Position numbers and translations under genes: made by a program. The notes below the pieces were generated by a model. The model was not told the origin of the DNA, ran no database searches, and was given only the letters and a program-made list of their open reading frames with translations. From contig JACIWW010000021.1 of the NCBI GenBank assembly GCA_014360905.1, forward strand, positions 1 through 54,053: a DNA stretch of 54,053 nt. The letters are read 5' to 3'. This DNA is from Chloroflexota bacterium (GTDB lineage: Bacteria; Chloroflexota; Anaerolineae; UBA2200). Shown here piece by piece: positions 5,086 to 50,065 of the stretch. Each line of letters opens with the position of its first letter. Position 1 is the stretch's first letter.

Positions 5086-5208
5086 CCGTTCCTTCCCCGT
5101 TGACGGGGAGGGTCAGGGTAGAGTGGAGATGGGACTGGGGGTGAGGCAATCCGAGCGCTGAAGCGCTCACTACAAACCTGATGGCCGTCACTCAACTGTA
5201 GCGCATTG

Positions 5209-5886
5209 CTACGGATTTGTCTCCGTCAGACTGCCGAATCGGGCAGCTTGGACAGCGGCGCGACAACGCTCCAACTGAAGGAACAGGTCTGGGATGCACT
5301 GGGCAATCTCCGGGTGGTCGCTGACGAGTTCCTCCAAAAGCCACAGGGCACGGGAATCCGAAGCATCGGCCTGAATCCCTTGCAGATAGCACTCGGCTGC
5401 TTCGGCGAAACGTTGCTGACTTTCCAAGGAAATGCCCAGGTTCTTGTAGGCATTTTGTCGGCTGGGGTCAATCTGGATTGCCATGCGCAAGTAAGATTCT
5501 GCTTCTTCGTGTCGTCCCAATCGGTTTAGACAGTATCCCAGGTTGTTGTGGACAAAATATGCAATGTGCGGGTCAACTGGTTCCAGGGCATAGGCCTGGG
5601 CATAATAGGTGCAGGCTGCGTCATAGTCGCGGGTCTGCTCCATGAACTGGCCAAGGGCCAGGTAACATGCTGCCGTCAGTTCCAGGTCATCCGCAACGGC
5701 CAGGAGTTTCCTGATGTATTTGCAGGCCCGTTCTTGGCGTCCCTTGTGGCTGCAGAGCCATGCCAGGTCCCAGAGGGTTCTGCAGTATTCATCCTGGCAA
5801 CGCTTGAGTTTGCTCAGGAGAAGCTGCTCCAACTCTTCGCTGGTAGATTGGGGCACTCTAGGTTTTCCATACCAATTCTCTGACAT
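5209..5886 (-). CDS. TPR-repeat protein
   Basis: This 225-residue cytoplasmic protein is made of tetratricopeptide repeats. ATG 5886 is preferred over 5892 because GAAAGGAG directly abuts 5892, whereas it lies 6 bases before 5886. Repeats are visible at about residues 30-65 (LWDLAWLCSHKGRQERACKYI), 67-100 (ACYLALGQFMEQTRDYDAACTYYAQAYALEP), 105-140 (NNLGYCLNRLGRHEEAESYLRMAIQIDP) and 142-175 (AYKNLGISLESQQRFAEAAECYLQG). TPRs are protein-binding scaffolds and the partner is unknown. A minus-strand sigma-70-type promoter lies just upstream (5915-5943), so it is probably monocistronic. Confidence 0.85.
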   Translation of the reverse strand: MSENWYGKPRVPQSTSEELEQLLLSKLKRCQDEYCRTLWDLAWLCSHKGRQERACKYIRKLLAVADDLELTAACYLALGQFMEQTRDYDAACTYYAQAYALEPVDPHIAYFVHNNLGYCLNRLGRHEEAESYLRMAIQIDPSRQNAYKNLGISLESQQRFAEAAECYLQGIQADASDSRALWLLEELVSDHPEIAQCIPDLFLQLERCRAAVQAARFGSLTETNP

Positions 5887-5914
5887 GCCCATCTCCTTTC
5901 ACATGGACGCTCAT

Positions 5915-5943
5915 ATTTTACCACAAAGTTGCTTTCATTTCAA
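5915..5943 (-). promoter_or_regulatory. sigma-70-type promoter of the TPR gene
   Basis: Read on the minus strand, TTGAAA (5938-5943) and TAAAAT (5915-5920) are separated by exactly 17 bases. The expected transcript start is near 5908, about 20 bases before the ribosome-binding site of the TPR gene. Confidence 0.6.
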
Positions 5944-6018
5944 ATGAATTCCTGCTCGGCATGGACAACAGCCCGCGCCTGCTTTCACCGCAGAGCGCGC
6001 GGAGAGGCATTAGCAGCA

Positions 6019-6400
6019 GGCTGGGCGTGGGAGCCCAGCCTGCATAGCCGGGGAATGAATTCCCCGGCTGAATGTGAGAAGCCCCTGAAGGGGCTTGGCA
6101 GTTTTAGCCAGGGATTTCAATCCCTGGCGTCCTTGAGCGCTGAAGCGCTCACTACAAACCCGCCAGGGGGAGGCGTGGGAGTCGCCTGGAGGATTTCAAT
6201 CCCTGGTGTCCATGAGCGCTGAAGCGCTCACTACAAACCCGCCAGGGGGAGGCGTGGGAGTCGCCTGGAGGATTTCGATCCCTGGCCTCCGCTCCGCGTG
6301 GGCAACAGCCCACGCGAAAAGCCCCCTCTCCTACGCTGTAGGAGAGGGGGCTGGGGGTGAGGTTATCCGCCTGGAGCGGGGAAGTGTGGCTCACGACAAA
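6019..6400. repeat. composite hairpin-mosaic repeat (prototype copy)
   Basis: This fills most of the 5887-6405 gap. Modules in order: GGCTGGGC hairpin (6019-6040); CCGGGGAA-TGAA-TTCCCCGG (6048-6067); AGCCCC-TGAA-GGGGCT (6080-6095); GCCAGGGAT-TTCA-ATCCCTGGC (6107-6128); GAGCGC-TGAA-GCGCTC (6135-6150) followed by ACTACAAACC. The last two modules plus a GGCG/CGCC hairpin then repeat as a near-identical 75-bp direct duplication (to about 6285). GTGGGC/GCCCAC and CTCTCCTAC/GTAGGAGAG hairpins follow. No ORF here has coding character. Confidence 0.85.
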
Positions 6401-9861: not shown

Positions 9862-10140
9862 TTTGCTCCCGGCGGACCACAGTCCGCTGCCATTCCCGGC
9901 GTGGGTTCGTAGTGAGCGCTTCAGCGCTCGGATTGTAGGTTTGTAGTGAGCGCTTCAGCGCTCGGATTGTAGGTTTGTAGTAAGCGCTTCAGCGCTCGGA
10001 TTGTAGGTTTGTAGTGAGCGCTTCAGCGCTCATGGATGCCAGGGATTGAAATCCCTGGCTAAAACTGCCAAGCCCCTTCAGGGGCTCCTCTTCAGCCGGG
10101 GAATTCATGCCCCAGCCAGGCCCACGCGAAGTGCGCACTA
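9862..10140. repeat. composite hairpin repeat, reverse orientation, with a 4-copy 34-bp tandem array
   Basis: This occupies the 9806-10166 gap. On the plus strand it reads GCGGACC/GTCCGC hairpin, then four tandem units of about 34 bp (9904-10031: GGTTTGTAGT, GAGCGC-TTCA-GCGCTC, GGATTGTA), then the CCAGGGAT hairpin, the AGCCCC-TTCA-GGGGCT hairpin and the GGGGAATTC hairpin. Its reverse complement matches 13975-14215 module for module, so the two form a long inverted pair around the genes between them. It lies inside the phage operon. Confidence 0.88.
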
Positions 10141-10166
10141 CGAACTCCAGATGACAAGCATCGCCC

Positions 10167-13974: not shown

Positions 13975-14215
13975 AGCATGGCTGGGGCATGAATTCCCCG
14001 GCTGAATGCGAAGCCCCTTCAGGGCCTTGTCAGTTTTAGTCAGGGATTTCAATCCTTGGTGTCCATGAGCGCTGAAGCGCTCACTACGAACCTACAATCC
14101 GAGCGCTGAAGCGCTCACTACAAACCTACAATCCGAGCGCTGAAGCGCTCACTACGAACCCACGCCAGGGATAACGGCGGACTGTGGTCCGCCGGGAGCT
14201 GGGCACGCAAGGAAG
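13975..14215. repeat. composite hairpin repeat, forward orientation
   Basis: Order: GGGGCATGAATTCCCC, AGCCCC-TTCA-GGGCC (a degenerate terminator-like module), CAGGGAT-TTCA-ATCCTTG, then three tandem GAGCGC-TGAA-GCGCTC units separated by ACTACRAACCTACAATCC, then CGGACTGTGGTCCG. It is the inverted partner of 9862-10140. An AAAAAAGGAGCATG string at its left edge looks like a start site, but the frame closes after four codons and GGAGCATGG belongs to the repeat. Confidence 0.85.
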
Positions 14216-25769: not shown

Positions 25770-26210
25770 CTGGTGCGGGTTTGTAGTGAGCGCTTCAGCG
25801 CTCATACGCGCCAGGGATTGAAATCCTTGCCTAAAAGGGAAAAGCCCCTAAAAAGGGCTTTTCACATTCAGTTGGGGAATTCACGCCCCGGCCATGCTCC
25901 AGGCGCACAACAGTCCGCTGTCATCTCTGGCGTAGGTTTGTAGTGAGCGCTTCAGCGCTCATACGCGCCAGGGATTGAAATCCTTGCCTAAAAGGGAAAA
26001 GCCCCTAAAAAGGGCTTCTCACATTCAGCTGGGGAATCCATTCCCCGGCCACGCTCCAGGCGCACTGAAGTGCGCACTACGAACCTGCACTGAAGGGGCT
26101 TCTCACATTCCGCCGGGAAATTCATTCCCAGGCCATGCTCCAGGCGCACTGAAGTGCGCACTACGAACCTGCCCCTGCTCCAGGCGCACAACAGTCCACC
26201 ATCTCCTGGC
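25770..26210. repeat. cluster of composite hairpin repeats (reverse orientation)
   Basis: Two nearly identical reverse-oriented units (25778-25896 and 25937-26056) carry GAGCGC-TTCA-GCGCTC, CGCGCCAGGGATTGAAATCC, AAAAGCCCCTAAAAAGGGCTTTT (a bidirectional terminator shape) and GGGGAATTC. Shorter GCGCAC-TGAA-GTGCGC / AGGGGCTTCTCACATTC / GGGAAATTCATTCCC units follow to 26190. The first terminator-like hairpin lies about 135 bases after the MFS stop and probably ends that operon. No gene is visible in 25721-26624. Confidence 0.85.
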
Positions 26211-30879: not shown

Positions 30880-31340
30880 GAAACCAGGTTTCTGGAAGAA
30901 ACCTGGTTTCTTGCTCCAGGGGCCGGGGAATCCATTCCCCGGCCACGCTCCAGGCGCACTGAAGTGCGCACTACGAACCTGTACTGAAGGGGCTTCTCAT
31001 CTTCAGCCAGGGAATTCATTCCCCGGCCATGCTCCAGGCGCACTGAAGTGCGCACTACGAACCTGTACTGAAGGGGCTTCTTATCTTCAGCCGGGGAATT
31101 CATTCCCCGGCCACGCTCCAGGCGCACTGAAGTGCGCACTACGAACCTGCCCCTAAAAAGGGCTTCTCACATTCAGCTGGGGAATCCATTCCCCGGCCAC
31201 GCTCCAGGCGCACTGAAGTGCGCACTACGAACCTGCACTGAAGGGGCTTCTCATCTTCAGCCAGGGAATTCATTCCCCGGCCATGCCCTGCAATCCCACT
31301 TGCTCCGGGCGGACCACAGTCCGCCGTCTTTTTGCGTGGG
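30880..31340. repeat. composite hairpin repeats, GCGCAC type
   Basis: This fills 30859-31365. It starts with the AAACCAGGTTTCT palindrome (30880-30915), then five near-identical units of GGGGAATTCATTCCCC, GGCCAYGCTCCAG, GCGCAC-TGAA-GTGCGC, ACTACGAACCTG and AGGGGCTTCT. One unit has the AAAAAGGGCTT variant. It ends with GGCGGAC/GTCCGCC and GTGGGC/GTCCAC hairpins. No gene is seen in this stretch. Confidence 0.88.
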
Positions 31341-34041: not shown

Positions 34042-34310
34042 GTTATTTCCGATGCGCCGTTTTATCGCTCAGGGCGGAATGTTTGTCTGGTAACTTGCAA
34101 GGTCGTCGGAACCAGTATGTATGTGACTGCTACTACTGTCTGTGTCCATCCTTGCTCTTGGTTCTGTCTCTACTCAAAGACGTTCTCAAAGCGATCAAGT
34201 TCCCATCTTCAGCCTTCGGAGGTGACCTCACCTCGAGGCTCTTTCCCAACACAGAAAGATAAGCCGACCAACGTCGCAGCAGTCAAAGATGCGCGCCGGT
34301 CATTTATCCT

Positions 34311-34377: not shown

Positions 34378-34665
34378 GCAGGTTCGTAGTGCGCACTTCA
34401 GTGCGCCTGTAGCAGGTTCGTAGTGCGCACTTCAGTGCAGCAGGTTCGTAGTGCGCACTTCAGTGCGCCTGTAGCAGGTTCGTAGTGCGCACTTCAGTGC
34501 AGCAGGTTCGTAGTGCGCACTTCAGTGCGCATGGAGCGTGGCCGGGGCGTGAATTCCCCAGCTGAATGTGAAAAGCCCTTTTTAGGGGCTTTTCCCTTTT
34601 AGGCAAGGATTTCAATCCCTGGCGCGTATGAGCGCTGAAGCGCTCACTACGAACCCACGCCAGAG
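34378..34665. repeat. five-copy GCGCAC hairpin array plus composite repeat
   Basis: 34378-34530 is a tandem array of GCAGGTTCGTAGT, GCGCAC-TTCA-GTGC(GC) units in alternating 34- and 27-29-base lengths. A composite unit follows: GGGGCGTGAATTCCCC, AAAAGCCCTTTTTAGGGGCTTTT, AAGGATTTCAATCC, GAGCGC-TGAA-GCGCTC. The remaining 34666-34923 holds no recognisable feature except a TATACT (34873) that may be the -10 of the lepA stump. Confidence 0.88.
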
Positions 34666-34923: not shown

Positions 34924-35112
34924 ATGGATCAAAGTTACATCCGCAATTTCTGTATCATCGCCCACATCGACCACGGCAAGAGCACTCTCAGCGACCGTCT
35001 GCTGGAATATACTGGTACCATCAGCCCGCGCGAGATGTCTGAGCAGGTGCTCGACCAGATGGACCTTATAGTATTATCATCAATTCTCGATTTTGCTCAG
35101 TTGCAAAGATAG
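34924..35112 (+). pseudogene. lepA: lepA (elongation factor 4) N-terminal stump
   Basis: The first ~47 residues are unmistakable Lep[21 protein letters not shown] with the G1 P-loop AHIDHGKST, then [27 protein letters not shown]. In LepA this continues with the RERGITI G2 switch, but here after base ~35067 the frame enters 26 bases of AT-rich sequence and then an IS end at 35093, adding [14 protein letters not shown] before a stop. About 550 residues are missing and no remainder is in the window. LepA is a ribosome-binding translational GTPase, usually single copy, so an intact copy may lie elsewhere or the gene is lost in this strain. Confidence 0.88.
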
Positions 35113-35737: not shown

Positions 35738-38164
35738 TCAGCGATCGGACAGTTTGAATTCTTCTTCCAGAATATTGGCATGGTATTCCATGCCGAGATC
35801 TTCGTAGATTTTCCTGGCCTCATCAGCGCGTTTTTTGGCTTCCGCCTCGTTTCCGCATTTCCTTTCGATTTGTGCACGTACACTTAGAGCAAAGGCCATA
35901 GCACTAGCAGGGTAGCAGATAGCCTGTGCCCATTCGATACTCAGATCAGACCTCCTTCTTGCTTCCTCGCATTTCCCTTGCATAATCTCAATTAAGGCCA
36001 GAGAGCTATGCGTTCCTATTAGTATGCTCAAATCGCCACTATCCACGAACGCATTTAAAAGCTGATGATATTGTTCTGCTGCTTCTTCCAATAGGCCTTG
36101 CATCAGCCAAAGTTTGGCACGTGAACGCAAAGATATGGTTTTCCAGTATTCAGCTTGGGGTTGTTCTAAACTCTCCCAAATATCCAAACTCTCCTTAAGC
36201 ATCTCTTGAGCTTTTTCGTATTCTCCCTCGTCCATCGTTAATTCAGCCATATCCCGCAAAGTGAGCGCCAGCACGTGCTCCCACCTGTTGTTTCTAGCTT
36301 GTTCCAAAATCTCTTCTAGAAGTTCTTTGGCCTTGGATCGCGATTCGTTCGTGCCCATATTGATATAAGACCAGGCCACGTCTCGAACCGCAAACCATCC
36401 TTGACGGTCCAGTTGCCCGAGCCTTTCCGAAGCCTTCATGGCCCGTCTTCCCCAGAGTATCTTCTCGTCAAGATATCGGAGGACACCAAGCGGGATCCCC
36501 ATCAGCTCTACAAACTTCTGCACCTCTTCCCATTTCTCTAGGTCATAACACCACTCCATTATCTTTATAACATTGCCCTTTTCTCGTCTGAGGAACAATA
36601 ACGTACTATCTAAACGATCCTTTCTAACGTCCAAGGCCTCGAGGTAGTAATCAGTCAAACGCTCGCACGCTTTGTCGCAGAAATCAGCAACTTGTGGGTC
36701 TTTCCAAATTGATTCAGCGATAAATCCGCGTACTAGAGGTACCGCATCATACCCGGCATACTCTGGTCTTTCTACCCGCTCTATCATATGGGCGTGGCAT
36801 AGCTTCCCTATAGCATCGTATATCCCTGCGCTTGAAATCCCACTAGCTACTTGGAGGTCTTCGGACGAAGGCATATCCCTGAATAGGGGCAGCACAACCA
36901 ATACATTCTTGGCAGAGGATGGTAACCGTTGATAGGCCCTCAGATAATAGAACTCAATCACCTTTCTTATGTTCTCTGCGGAGGAAAGATGCTCTAGAGC
37001 CTCATCGAAAGTCGGGTATGTTCGCACACTTCCCAAAAACACACTCATAACCAAAGGATAATTAGCATATGGGTGTTCTAACAGTTTCTCCAGCTCCATC
37101 TCTGCAAGCGGTGGTCTTACTCCCAATGCCTCGATTTCCATTCTTATGTAATTTTTTGCTTCCTCTCTTGTCATTGGGCCGATTTTTACTAATTTTTCAC
37201 CTACGCAAGGTGGTTTGCGTTTGGTGATTATAGATTTGTGTTGGCGAGGCAGTCTGTAGATAAAGTCATGGACCTTGCCTTCAAGACCGTCGGGGAGATA
37301 TTCCGAATCCATATTATCAAAGATAAACAGGCACACGCAGTCTTTCAGCACTTGTTCTAGAAAAAGTTGTTTTTCCTCGTTAGATGGAATTTGTAGTATT
37401 TCTCTCTTTCCAAGTGTAGTGCCAATCAGGTTTAGGTCTGTTTTCCAGACATTTTCGAGATCGGGAGGCATCCCTAACAACTGTCGCGTTATTCGGGGGT
37501 CCGAACGATGGGAGAGCCAGATGACTGCTTCGAATTGAAGCCGATGCTCGTCCCGTTTTTTCTCTACTTCTTCGGCTACTTTATAAATGAGAGTTGACTT
37601 ACCTACACCTGCTTCACCCTCAACAGATATCAACCAAGCCTTCCCATCACGGAGTTCGGGGATGAAGACGTCCATTACATAGTCTCTCCCTGTATTATCC
37701 TGCCTTGGCACAAATTCGTGAATGTGTACTTGGTGCTGCAGGTTGTGTTTGACTTTTACCGCCATCTTAGCCTCCTCCTCTGACCGCCATAACAAAAGCG
37801 CCATCGCCTCCAGGGCCTCTTTTCGTATGCTGTAGAATGTTGACCGGGCCACGGCTAGATCGCTTGCGACGATACCCCATTCTTTCCCTTCCCAAATGTA
37901 TTCTTTGAGGAATGTATAGCTGCGCCAAAGAGGCGTATCCCTCTCTGTATTAGACGGCCGCATGCTTTCTATAGCGTTCCTTAAAACTTCTTTCATAACA
38001 TCCCCAACGAGAACGGTTGAATAATACTCTACGGGTTGAGGTAAATGCCTTCGCAAAAGGGATGGCAGCTCACTTACCAGGGCGCTTTTACCTAAGCCTC
38101 GGATATCCCGTTTGCGTAACAATGACGCTGCGCTGCTTACCCACTTGACAAATTCTTCCCTCAT
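35738..38164 (-). CDS. STAND-class NTPase (NB-ARC-like) with N-terminal HTH and C-terminal TPRs
   Basis: This is an 808-residue protein. The N-terminal ~130 residues include a probable HTH (WGIVASDLAVARSTFYSIRKEALEAM, ~97-121). The NTPase core has Walker A GEAGVGKST (183-191), Walker B CLFIFDNMD (D283) and a sensor-1-like SIITKR (R316), followed by a winged helix at ~410-480 (LVVLPLFRDMPSSEDLQVASGI). The C-terminal ~250 residues are TPR-like (VRDVAWSYINMG, ALTLRDMAELTMDEGEYEKAQEMLKESLDIW). This is the signal-sensing STAND layout, used both by transcription regulators and by anti-phage sensors; no nuclease or other effector domain is visible, which favours a regulator. ATG 38164 has AGGAGG 5 bases upstream. 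GC content is clearly below the flanks and the gene lies between IS fragments, so it looks imported. Confidence 0.82.
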   Translation of the reverse strand: MREEFVKWVSSAASLLRKRDIRGLGKSALVSELPSLLRRHLPQPVEYYSTVLVGDVMKEVLRNAIESMRPSNTERDTPLWRSYTFLKEYIWEGKEWGIVASDLAVARSTFYSIRKEALEAMALLLWRSEEEAKMAVKVKHNLQHQVHIHEFVPRQDNTGRDYVMDVFIPELRDGKAWLISVEGEAGVGKSTLIYKVAEEVEKKRDEHRLQFEAVIWLSHRSDPRITRQLLGMPPDLENVWKTDLNLIGTTLGKREILQIPSNEEKQLFLEQVLKDCVCLFIFDNMDSEYLPDGLEGKVHDFIYRLPRQHKSIITKRKPPCVGEKLVKIGPMTREEAKNYIRMEIEALGVRPPLAEMELEKLLEHPYANYPLVMSVFLGSVRTYPTFDEALEHLSSAENIRKVIEFYYLRAYQRLPSSAKNVLVVLPLFRDMPSSEDLQVASGISSAGIYDAIGKLCHAHMIERVERPEYAGYDAVPLVRGFIAESIWKDPQVADFCDKACERLTDYYLEALDVRKDRLDSTLLFLRREKGNVIKIMEWCYDLEKWEEVQKFVELMGIPLGVLRYLDEKILWGRRAMKASERLGQLDRQGWFAVRDVAWSYINMGTNESRSKAKELLEEILEQARNNRWEHVLALTLRDMAELTMDEGEYEKAQEMLKESLDIWESLEQPQAEYWKTISLRSRAKLWLMQGLLEEAAEQYHQLLNAFVDSGDLSILIGTHSSLALIEIMQGKCEEARRRSDLSIEWAQAICYPASAMAFALSVRAQIERKCGNEAEAKKRADEARKIYEDLGMEYHANILEEEFKLSDR

Positions 38165-40619: not shown

Positions 40620-41640
40620 CGAAGCAATCTCGTTGGTGATGAGCATAGCCGGGGAACGAATAAACGAATCACCGCAGCGTCATTCGATGATTCGTTTTTC
40701 CTATTCGTTGATGGCTTTCCCCTGTAACAGTCCACGCCAAAAGACGGCGGACTTTTGTCCGCCTGGAGCAGTTGAAGTGATGGCCATCAACGGATGGGAG
40801 AACGAATCACTGCAGCGCAGCAGGTTGGGCTCCCATGCCCAGCTAGCATAGCCAGGGCGTGAATTCCCCAGCTGAATGTGAGAAGCCCTTGAAAGGGGCA
40901 GCAGGTTCGTAGTGCGCACTTCAGTGCGCCTGGAGCGTGGCCGGGGCGTGAATTCCCCAGCTGAATGTGAAAAGCCCCTGAAAGGGGCTTTTCCCTTTTT
41001 AGCCAGGGATTTCAATACCTGGCGCCCATGAGCGCTGAAACGCTCACTACAAACTCACCCAGGAGGAGCCGCCCCTGCAAAGGCACAGCAGGCTGGGCTC
41101 CCACGCCCAGCCTGCATGGCCGGGGATTGCAATCCCTGGCATCTGCTCCACGTGGACAACAGCCCACGCAAAAAGCCCCTCTCCTACAGCGTAGGAGAGG
41201 GGCCAGGAGGTGAGGCAATCCGAGCGCTGAAGCGCTCACTACAAACCCGCCAGGAGGCGGCGGACTGTGGTCCGCCGGGAGCAGGTGGAGCGATGGCCAT
41301 CAACGAATGGAGGAACGAATAAACGAATCACCGCAGAGCAGCAGGCTGGGCTCCCACGCTCAGCCAGCATGGCTGGGGATTGCAATCCCTGGCACCTGCT
41401 CGGCGTGGACAACAGTCCACGCAAAAAGCCCTTCTCCTACAGCGTAGGAGAGGGGGCCTGAGGTGAGGCAATCCAAGCGCTGAAGCGCTCACTACAAACC
41501 CGCCAGGAGGCGGCGGACTGTTGTCCGCCTGAAGCAGTGTGACGATGGCCGTCAACGAATGGGGAACGAATAAACGAATTCGTTTTGGCATAGCCATTCG
41601 TTGAGGGCATGGTGCAAGGGGAACGAATCAATACATCCCA
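40620..41640. repeat. dense mosaic of dispersed hairpin repeats
   Basis: This fills most of 40425-41840. Besides the composite unit (40855-41060: GGGGCGTGAATTCCCC, AAAAGCCCCTGAAAGGGGCTTTT, CCAGGGATTTCAATACCTGG, GAGCGC-TGAA-ACGCTC), it holds two long partial duplications (about 41085-41330 and 41335-41580) with GGCTGGGC hairpins, GATTGCAATC, GTGGAC/GTCCAC, CTCTCCTACAGCGTAGGAGAG, GAGCGCTGAAGCGCTC and GGCGGAC/GTCCGCC. It also has at least four copies of a GCCATCAACGAATGG..GAACGAATAAACGAAT family (40660-40715, 40780-40810, 41290-41330, 41545-41610). No coding ORF is convincing here. Confidence 0.85.
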
Positions 41641-47285: not shown

Positions 47286-47930
47286 GCGAGTGTGGCCGGG
47301 GAATAAATTCCCTGGCTGAATGCGAAAAGCCCCTGAAAGGGGCTTTTCATTTTTAGCCAGGGATTGCAATCCCTGGCACCCATGAGCGCTGAAGCGCTCA
47401 CTACGAACCCGCACCAGGGATGACGGCGGACTGTTGTCAGCAGGTTCGTAGTGCGCACTTCAGTGCGCCTGGAGCATGGCCGGGGCGTGAATTCCCCAGC
47501 TGAATGTGAAAAGCCCTTTTTAGGGGCTTTTCCTTTTTAGGCAAGGATTTCAATCCCTGGCGTCCATGAGCGCTGAAGCGCTCACTACGAACCCACGCCA
47601 GAGATGACAGCGGACTGTTGTGCGCCAGGAGCATGGCCGGGGCGTGAATTCCCCAGCTGAAGATGAGAAGCCCCTTCAGTACAGGTTCGTAGTGCGCACC
47701 TCAGTGCACCTGGAGCATGGCCGGGGCGTGAATTCCCCGGCAGAATGTGAAAAGCCCTTTTTAGGGGCTTTTCCTTTTTAGCCAGGGATTTCAATCCCTG
47801 GCATCCATGAGCGCTGAAGCGCTCACTACGAACCCACGCCAGAGATGACAGCGGACTGTGGTCCGCCTGGAGCAAGGACCTCACCCCCGGCCCCCTCTCC
47901 TGCTGCAGGAGAGGGGGTAGCGTGTAGTGT
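47286..47930. repeat. three consecutive composite hairpin repeats
   Basis: The first unit is textbook: AAAAGCCCCTGAAAGGGGCTTTT (47325-47347), GCCAGGGATTGCAATCCCTGGC (47356-47377), GAGCGC-TGAA-GCGCTC (47384-47399). Two more full units follow at about 47475-47600 and 47715-47870, separated by GCAGGTTCGTAGTGCGCAC hairpins and GCGGACTGTGGTCCGC. The block ends in a CTCTCCTGCTGCAGGAGAG hairpin near 47900. From 47931 to the promoter at 48080 nothing else is recognised. Confidence 0.9.
47325..47347. terminator. bidirectional intrinsic terminator supplied by the composite repeat
   Basis: AAAAGCCCC-TGAAA-GGGGCTTTT has a seven-to-eleven-base stem with A and T runs on both sides, so it can terminate transcription on either strand. 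It lies 40 bases after the protease stop. Equivalent modules sit near 25855, 26010, 34580, 40990, 47520 and 47765. Confidence 0.65.
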
Positions 47931-49914: not shown

Positions 49915-50065
49915 CTCCCGGCGGACCACAGTCCGCCGTCTTTGGGCGGGTTTGTAGTGAGCGCTTCAGCGCTCATGGATGCCAGGGATTGAAATCCCTG
50001 GCTAAAAGCAACAAGCCCCTTCAGGGGCTTCGCACATTCAGCCGGGGAATTCATTCCCCGGCCAT
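49915..50065. repeat. composite hairpin repeat, reverse orientation
   Basis: Order on the plus strand: GGCGGAC/GTCCGCC, GGTTTGTAGT + GAGCGC-TTCA-GCGCTC, GCCAGGGATTGAAATCCCTGGC, AAGCCCC-TTCA-GGGGCTT, CCGGGGAA-TTCA-TTCCCCGG. A CATTGCGAGCCGCCACAGGC string just before it (49878) is a further dispersed element. The 50066-50202 stretch shows no feature. Confidence 0.85.

Follow-up and report, generated by a model that had tools for sequence, protein, structure and literature searches.

REP elements are associated with HUH transposases known as RAYTs, or TnpA_REP (PMC2817692, PMC3733652, PMC6006769). A superfamily of GTAG-tagged REPs, with 24 published families, has been reported from Cyanobacteria, Chloroflexi and the PVC group (Di Nocera 2013, PMC3733652); like the elements described below, its members have a terminal GTAG, a stem of 6-9 bp and a TY loop, fall into sub-families with alternative, complementary stem residues, form both homo- and heterodimers, and include copies that flank RAYT genes. 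The same 2013 survey described a preference for heterodimers without obvious explanation, and suggested protection from hairpin-removing enzymes (PMC3733652). RAYTs of TnpA_REP subclass 2.8 combine an NHYH HuH motif with W[YH], YIHYNP and a proline-rich N-terminus, and flank canonical GT[AG]G REPs, as does the RAYT described here; the published sample of this subclass is restricted to Cyanobacteria, with relatives elsewhere mentioned (PMC6006769). Two further arrangements have likenesses here: in E. coli BIME-2, two REP types (Y and Z2) flank the RAYT gene yafM and alternate in orientation (PMC2817692), and the REPINs of Pseudomonas fluorescens SBW25 are inverted REP doublets with a structured spacer, in which compensatory changes have been noted (PMC3116915). 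In vitro, a group 3 RAYT from Marinomonas needs the loop T-T-N-A and tolerates changes in stem sequence but not stem mismatches, with GTAG guiding the cleavage site; in a Stenotrophomonas system, cleavage is even better when the base of the stem is altered (PMC8266576).

The literature thus already covers GTAG REPs, their compensatory stem changes and their heterodimers, and what we describe is an ordinary REP/RAYT system, cleanly resolved. It departs from its relatives as follows. The tag conserved in this RAYT clade, GGTTYGTAG, is longer than that of the GTAG superfamily. The RAYT occurs in the class Anaerolineae, with homologues in planctomycete, lentisphaeral and verrucomicrobial genomes, unlike the published subclass 2.8 sample. 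The stems are short and perfect, like the substrates of group 3 RAYTs, whereas E. coli REPs have a bulged stem. Lastly, SBW25 doublets consist of same-group REPs, whereas opposite-facing partners in the source genome always have different stems.

Results

The window, a 54,053-nt stretch of a Chloroflexota genome, contains 38 matches to ACTACRAACC (at most one mismatch), with 3.0 expected; none of 100 shuffles reached this number. About 33 of the tag copies adjoin a stem-TTYA-stem hairpin, and each hairpin, read on the opposite strand, is GGTTYGTAG followed by a palindrome, that is, a GTAG-tagged REP element. All REP copies in the window sit between long ORFs, as read by eye. An Rfam search of the window gave no match, and a literature text search for the tag sequence returned only unrelated matches.

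Five REPs of the form GGTTCGTAG-T-GCGCACT-TC-AGTGCGC make up a tandem array on the forward strand at 34381-34530 (spacing 34, 28, 34 and 28 bp), in which copies 2 and 4 (34415 and 34477) have a truncated 3' arm. A REP with the other stem, GGTTCGTAG-T-GAGCGCT-TC-AGCGCTC, lies on the reverse strand at 34630-34655 and faces the opposite way to the array. Together, the last array copy, a 99-nt spacer and this opposite-facing copy form a heterotypic REPIN of 151 nt (34505-34655). The spacer (34531-34629) is structured, with arms GGGGCGTGAATTCCCC and GGGATTTCAATCCC and a terminator-like AAAAGCCCTTTTTAGGGGCTTTT hairpin at its tip. The original prediction was of two hairpin types, GAGCGCT and GCGCACT, that share the ACTACRAACC flank while the stem is rewritten on both sides, with both types lying within 34378-34530. 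Both types and their common flank are indeed present in the window; the interval itself holds the five GCGCACT copies, and the GAGCGCT copy lies just outside it, on the other strand. The rewriting is compensated, as predicted, but extends to only two of the seven base pairs (pair 2 goes from A:T to C:G, and pair 5 from G:C to A:T).

Further copies are spread along the window. There are three dispersed GAGCGCT-type REPs on the reverse strand at 5153-6239 (tags at 5169, 6151 and 6230), three tandem GAGCGCT-type REPs on the reverse strand at 14067-14160 (34-bp spacing), four tandem GCGCACT-type REPs on the reverse strand at 30954-31233 (84-86-bp units, adjoining an Nramp gene), and a lone GAGCGCT-type REP on the forward strand at 49949-49974. 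Mixed clusters lie at 9904-10146, where four GAGCGCT-type copies on the forward strand and one degenerate GCGCACT-type copy on the reverse strand face outward, 122 bp apart; at 25778-26169, with an outward-facing heterotypic pair (25944/26076, 132 bp); at 40904-41500, with another such pair (40913/41046) and two more GAGCGCT-type copies; and at 47384-47834, where five copies alternate in type and strand, as in a BIME, and include two heterotypic pairs of 132 bp.

The array at 34381-34530 lies between mgtE and the start of a LepA-like gene, the two being divergently oriented. Upstream of mgtE, positions 34047-34171 are 87% identical in the congener G001, conserved like coding sequence, and match no Rfam family; this stretch is possibly an mgtE leader element. 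The LepA/EF4-like N-terminus (34924-35066) ends after about 48 codons, with no later LepA motif in the window, and could mark an insertion, a rearrangement or an assembly joint. Just past it, at 35738-38164, is a NACHT/NB-ARC protein with TPR repeats, which could be a defence-type STAND protein. G001 shares the conserved nramp-mgtE block but has no array next to it; synteny does not extend to the far side, and hence this is not a clean empty site.

The 2.83-Mb source genome contains 92 matches to TGAAGNNNNNACTACRAACC, in which five stem positions are free, and none to the reversed control; strict matches to the reverse-strand pattern GGTTNGTAGTNNNNNCTTYAG number 105. The element is 26 nt long, with a short-looped palindrome, and is high-copy and, in the window, intergenic; every pattern-defined copy has GGTTYGTAG 5' of its stem. 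Folded as DNA, single elements form a 6-bp stem with a TTCA/TTTA loop. Besides the two types of the window, the genome has a third stem, GCGCGCT/AGCGCGC, which is intermediate between them and fully paired, and a fourth, AACGGCT/AGCCGTT. Copies were gathered by pattern searches and from the sequence stretches around matches, and dimer counts hold for these sampled regions. Most copies are borne by contigs C12, C16, C21 (the window), C23 and C40, about 9% of the assembly; the element-rich contigs have a GC content of 0.55-0.61, compared with 0.50-0.55 in sampled other contigs, and a different tetranucleotide profile. Bin contamination as their source is opposed by the Nramp gene of the window, which is 88% identical in a congener.

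Homology searching identified a single matching RAYT gene in the source genome, at C16:60454-61104. The ORF scores 90.6 (cut-off 80) against NCBIfam NF047646 (REP_Tyr_transpos, REP-associated tyrosine transposase), its family profile matches TnpA_REP (4er8) best among solved structures (E=1.4e-12), and it has NHYH, WY and YIHYNP motifs with a proline-rich N-terminus (GYPPHSPPHP). Both stem types occur in arrays on either side of the gene (six GCGCACT and four GAGCGCT copies), and the RAYT genes of G001 (L210) and of G164, a genome from another family (L215), are likewise embedded in arrays. Pfam Y1_Tnp (PF01797) missed the C16 RAYT, which was recovered by NF047646 and the homologue search; the two PF01797 RAYT-like genes of the genome were rejected as the cognate enzyme, neither being flanked by elements, and RAYTs fetched with PF01797 from other genomes are mostly not flanked by these elements. 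We also rejected an autonomous IS200/IS605 element: the next-nearest two Y1 genes are only 28% identical to the C16 RAYT, there is one such RAYT copy, and nearly all hairpins are geneless.

We searched 298 genomes of the class, 22 of which have a close RAYT homologue (E below 1e-40). GTAG/TY-loop hairpins flank 19 of the 22 close homologues, compared with 0 of 8 sister-clade RAYTs. The strict element pattern is present in 53 of the 298 genomes, and 16 have both element and RAYT; the frequency of the element is thus 16/22 where the RAYT is present and 37/277 where it is absent (p=3.9e-9). In the 37 element-bearing genomes without a close RAYT, the gene may have been lost, the MAGs may be incomplete, or another mobiliser may be at work. 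For other phyla, RAYT homologues were sought in genomes picked by element presence: seven from cyanobacterial genomes (L260-L265 and L267) and one from a Lentisphaeria genome (L269) are clearly flanked, flanking is weaker (one to three hairpins) for planctomycete and verrucomicrobial loci, and hairpins are missing beside several of the strong homologues from other phyla. In a tree of the RAYT homologues, the C16 RAYT groups with sequences from its own class and from Cyanobacteria in one mixed clade (97/91). Other REPtrons, with the stems and tags GTAG-CCCCGACTCT-TT and GTAG-GGTGCGC, flank other RAYTs at L177 and L191, in genomes that also carry the GGTTYGTAG family. In many close homologues, the matching region includes one or two stop codons (L219, L221, L224-L227, L230, L260, L261, L263, L265-L267 and L270), which suggests frequent gene decay, or matches that run past the end of the gene.

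These observations argue strongly that the hairpins are GTAG-tagged REPs served by the one RAYT at C16:60454-61104, which very probably reads the tag and loop and requires of the stem only that it be paired. An alternative is that the hairpins are kept for a job at the RNA level, such as transcription termination or the formation of mRNA ends, and are spread by recombination, the link to the RAYT being incidental. Copies do lie between long ORFs, and the REPIN spacer has a terminator-like hairpin. Nonetheless, termination accounts neither for the constancy of the GTAG tag and TTYA loop nor for the RAYT flanking (19/22 versus 0/8) and genome co-occurrence, and the array of the window sits between divergently oriented genes; we therefore consider this explanation very unlikely, and a secondary RNA-level role possible.

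If a RAYT requires only that the stem be paired, the two arms can vary together. For the pairing test, hairpins were defined by the tag alone, the stem being no search condition, and loci fetched with the five outer pairs free were added. In the source genome, 88 of the 103 tag-defined copies with a GA/AA loop are fully paired, and nine have one mismatch. Scored over all copies against the commonest hairpin, pair-level changes are compensated in 81 cases and uncompensated in 26; when each distinct hairpin is scored once, the numbers are 12 and 15. The compensated excess within this one genome thus largely reflects amplification of fully paired types, whereas the excess across genomes is real covariation. 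The cross-genome set is decisive for the pairing question: among 116 distinct hairpins, Watson-Crick pairs fill 79% of cells, versus 18-31% after one arm has been displaced by 1-2 bases. Pairs 2-5 include all four Watson-Crick pair types across genomes, while the tag, the loop and the two pairs nearest the loop do not vary. Shuffling the 3' arms gave the same picture, with 204 pairs observed in the class against a null of 126.5+-7.6, and 390 against 272.9+-9.0 across phyla, among the matches listed; the excess is weaker in the source genome alone (92 against 75.9+-5.0, maximum 94) because there are few distinct hairpins there. About ten cross-phylum single hits among the matches listed, including L069, L076, L083, L087, L094, L097, L116, L120 and L123, look like chance matches, their arms being unpaired; a RAYT match is absent from the genomes of L069, L083, L094 and L123, and only weak in those of L097 and L116.

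The original prediction, that most copies within each type are fully paired and that the pattern reflects selection on structure, is therefore upheld, with a fixed tag and loop and a free but paired stem in the genome, the class and several other phyla, and with a flanked RAYT gene as the agent. It had proposed counting compensatory against disruptive changes over copies from the genome and its relatives, with a null for comparison, and held that stem changes as often unpaired as paired, or two types derived from unrelated elements, would speak against it. Across genomes, changes are mostly paired; the two types are two base pairs apart, have intermediates between them, and share one RAYT locus.

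The same prediction named a second route to paired arms. Template switching at quasipalindromes is a known mutational route, by which one arm could be copied from the other without selection on pairing, and fully paired types are more numerous than half-changed intermediates, as such copying would give. It does not, however, predict the gradient of pairing along the stem, in which the outermost pair is open in 69 of the 116 distinct hairpins and the two pairs nearest the loop are open in 15 and 5, and the fixity of loop and tag across phyla calls for selection. We give this explanation only the slightest chance; templated copying could be a source of stem variants, and is not needed for the explanation.

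Dimers in the source genome follow a strict rule, in which stem type equals strand: it is obeyed by 202 element pairs and broken by none, and holds in 12 of 12 mixed clusters. Opposite-facing partners in the sampled regions are always of different stem types. That such partners always differ (202:0), and form a 151-nt REPIN, is the new detail of this system. The sampled genome has 10 inverted doublets with the 132-bp spacing, and outward pairs are also heterotypic at other spacings (36 and 62 bp), in G001 (18/18) and in G164 (9/9).

The 151-nt REPIN is predicted to fold as one long hairpin (-42.4 kcal/mol, z -6.4) that competes with two local hairpins, raising the possibility that the selected unit is the long hairpin, formed by a REP and its opposite-facing partner. 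In a cyanobacteria-dominated set, 32 of 59 dimers are homotypic, as this would allow. Against it, all 43 outward pairs in the source genome, G001 and G164 are heterotypic, with 93-98% pairing within local hairpins and 59-70% between REPs, and single tandem copies keep the local hairpin too; we regard selection on the long hairpin as highly improbable. For opposite-facing partners in the source genome, the local hairpin is 98% paired versus 70% from REP to REP; the compensated changes therefore favour the local hairpin at the expense of the long one, pointing to selection on the local hairpin. Microcoleus-type genomes (L260, L261, L062 and others) have up to 1576 copies with the same tag and loop, GAGGACT/GCGGACT stems, and mostly homodimers.

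Discussion

We propose that the C16 RAYT acts on a single-stranded substrate consisting of a 5' GTAG tag (here GGTTYGTAG) followed by a short stem with a TTYA loop. Tag and loop would be read as sequence, and the stem would be needed just as a paired structure; the arms would therefore drift together, and one enzyme could serve several stem types, as the C16 RAYT probably does for all stem types of the source genome. Two types in opposite orientation would constitute the REPIN/BIME units, 151 nt long here, which would spread in dimeric form and as tandem arrays. By analogy with characterised RAYTs, the C16 enzyme would cleave and transfer the single strand and so disperse the elements; our comparison of genomes, including G001, revealed no transposition, excision or empty site. 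The natural variation of the family fits the RAYT assays, with a fixed GTAG, a fixed T-T-Y-A loop, a free but paired stem and a tolerant outermost pair.

The type-strand rule could descend from a single founding dimer within one lineage. A founder account is less simple given that the rule recurs with different spacers in another family. Alternatively, the two stem types may be distinct ends, such that the RAYT needs a dimer of differing REPs, each folding locally as the left or right end, as in IS200/IS605, and the rule is selected rather than inherited from a founder; we hold this reading tentatively, as a minority possibility. Different ends may also be kept as a way of avoiding the long perfect hairpin, prone to cutting or deletion, that two identical ends would form.

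The family is a natural experiment in substrate reading by a RAYT, since tag and loop stay constant, the stem varies as long as its arms pair, and one enzyme is matched with several stem types. It also bears on the heterodimer preference of many REP families, since the stem changes keep the local hairpin and break long-range pairing. Related cyanobacterial RAYTs keep many homodimers, so homo- and heterodimer states can be compared, and the heterotypic dimers are one testable point of the system.
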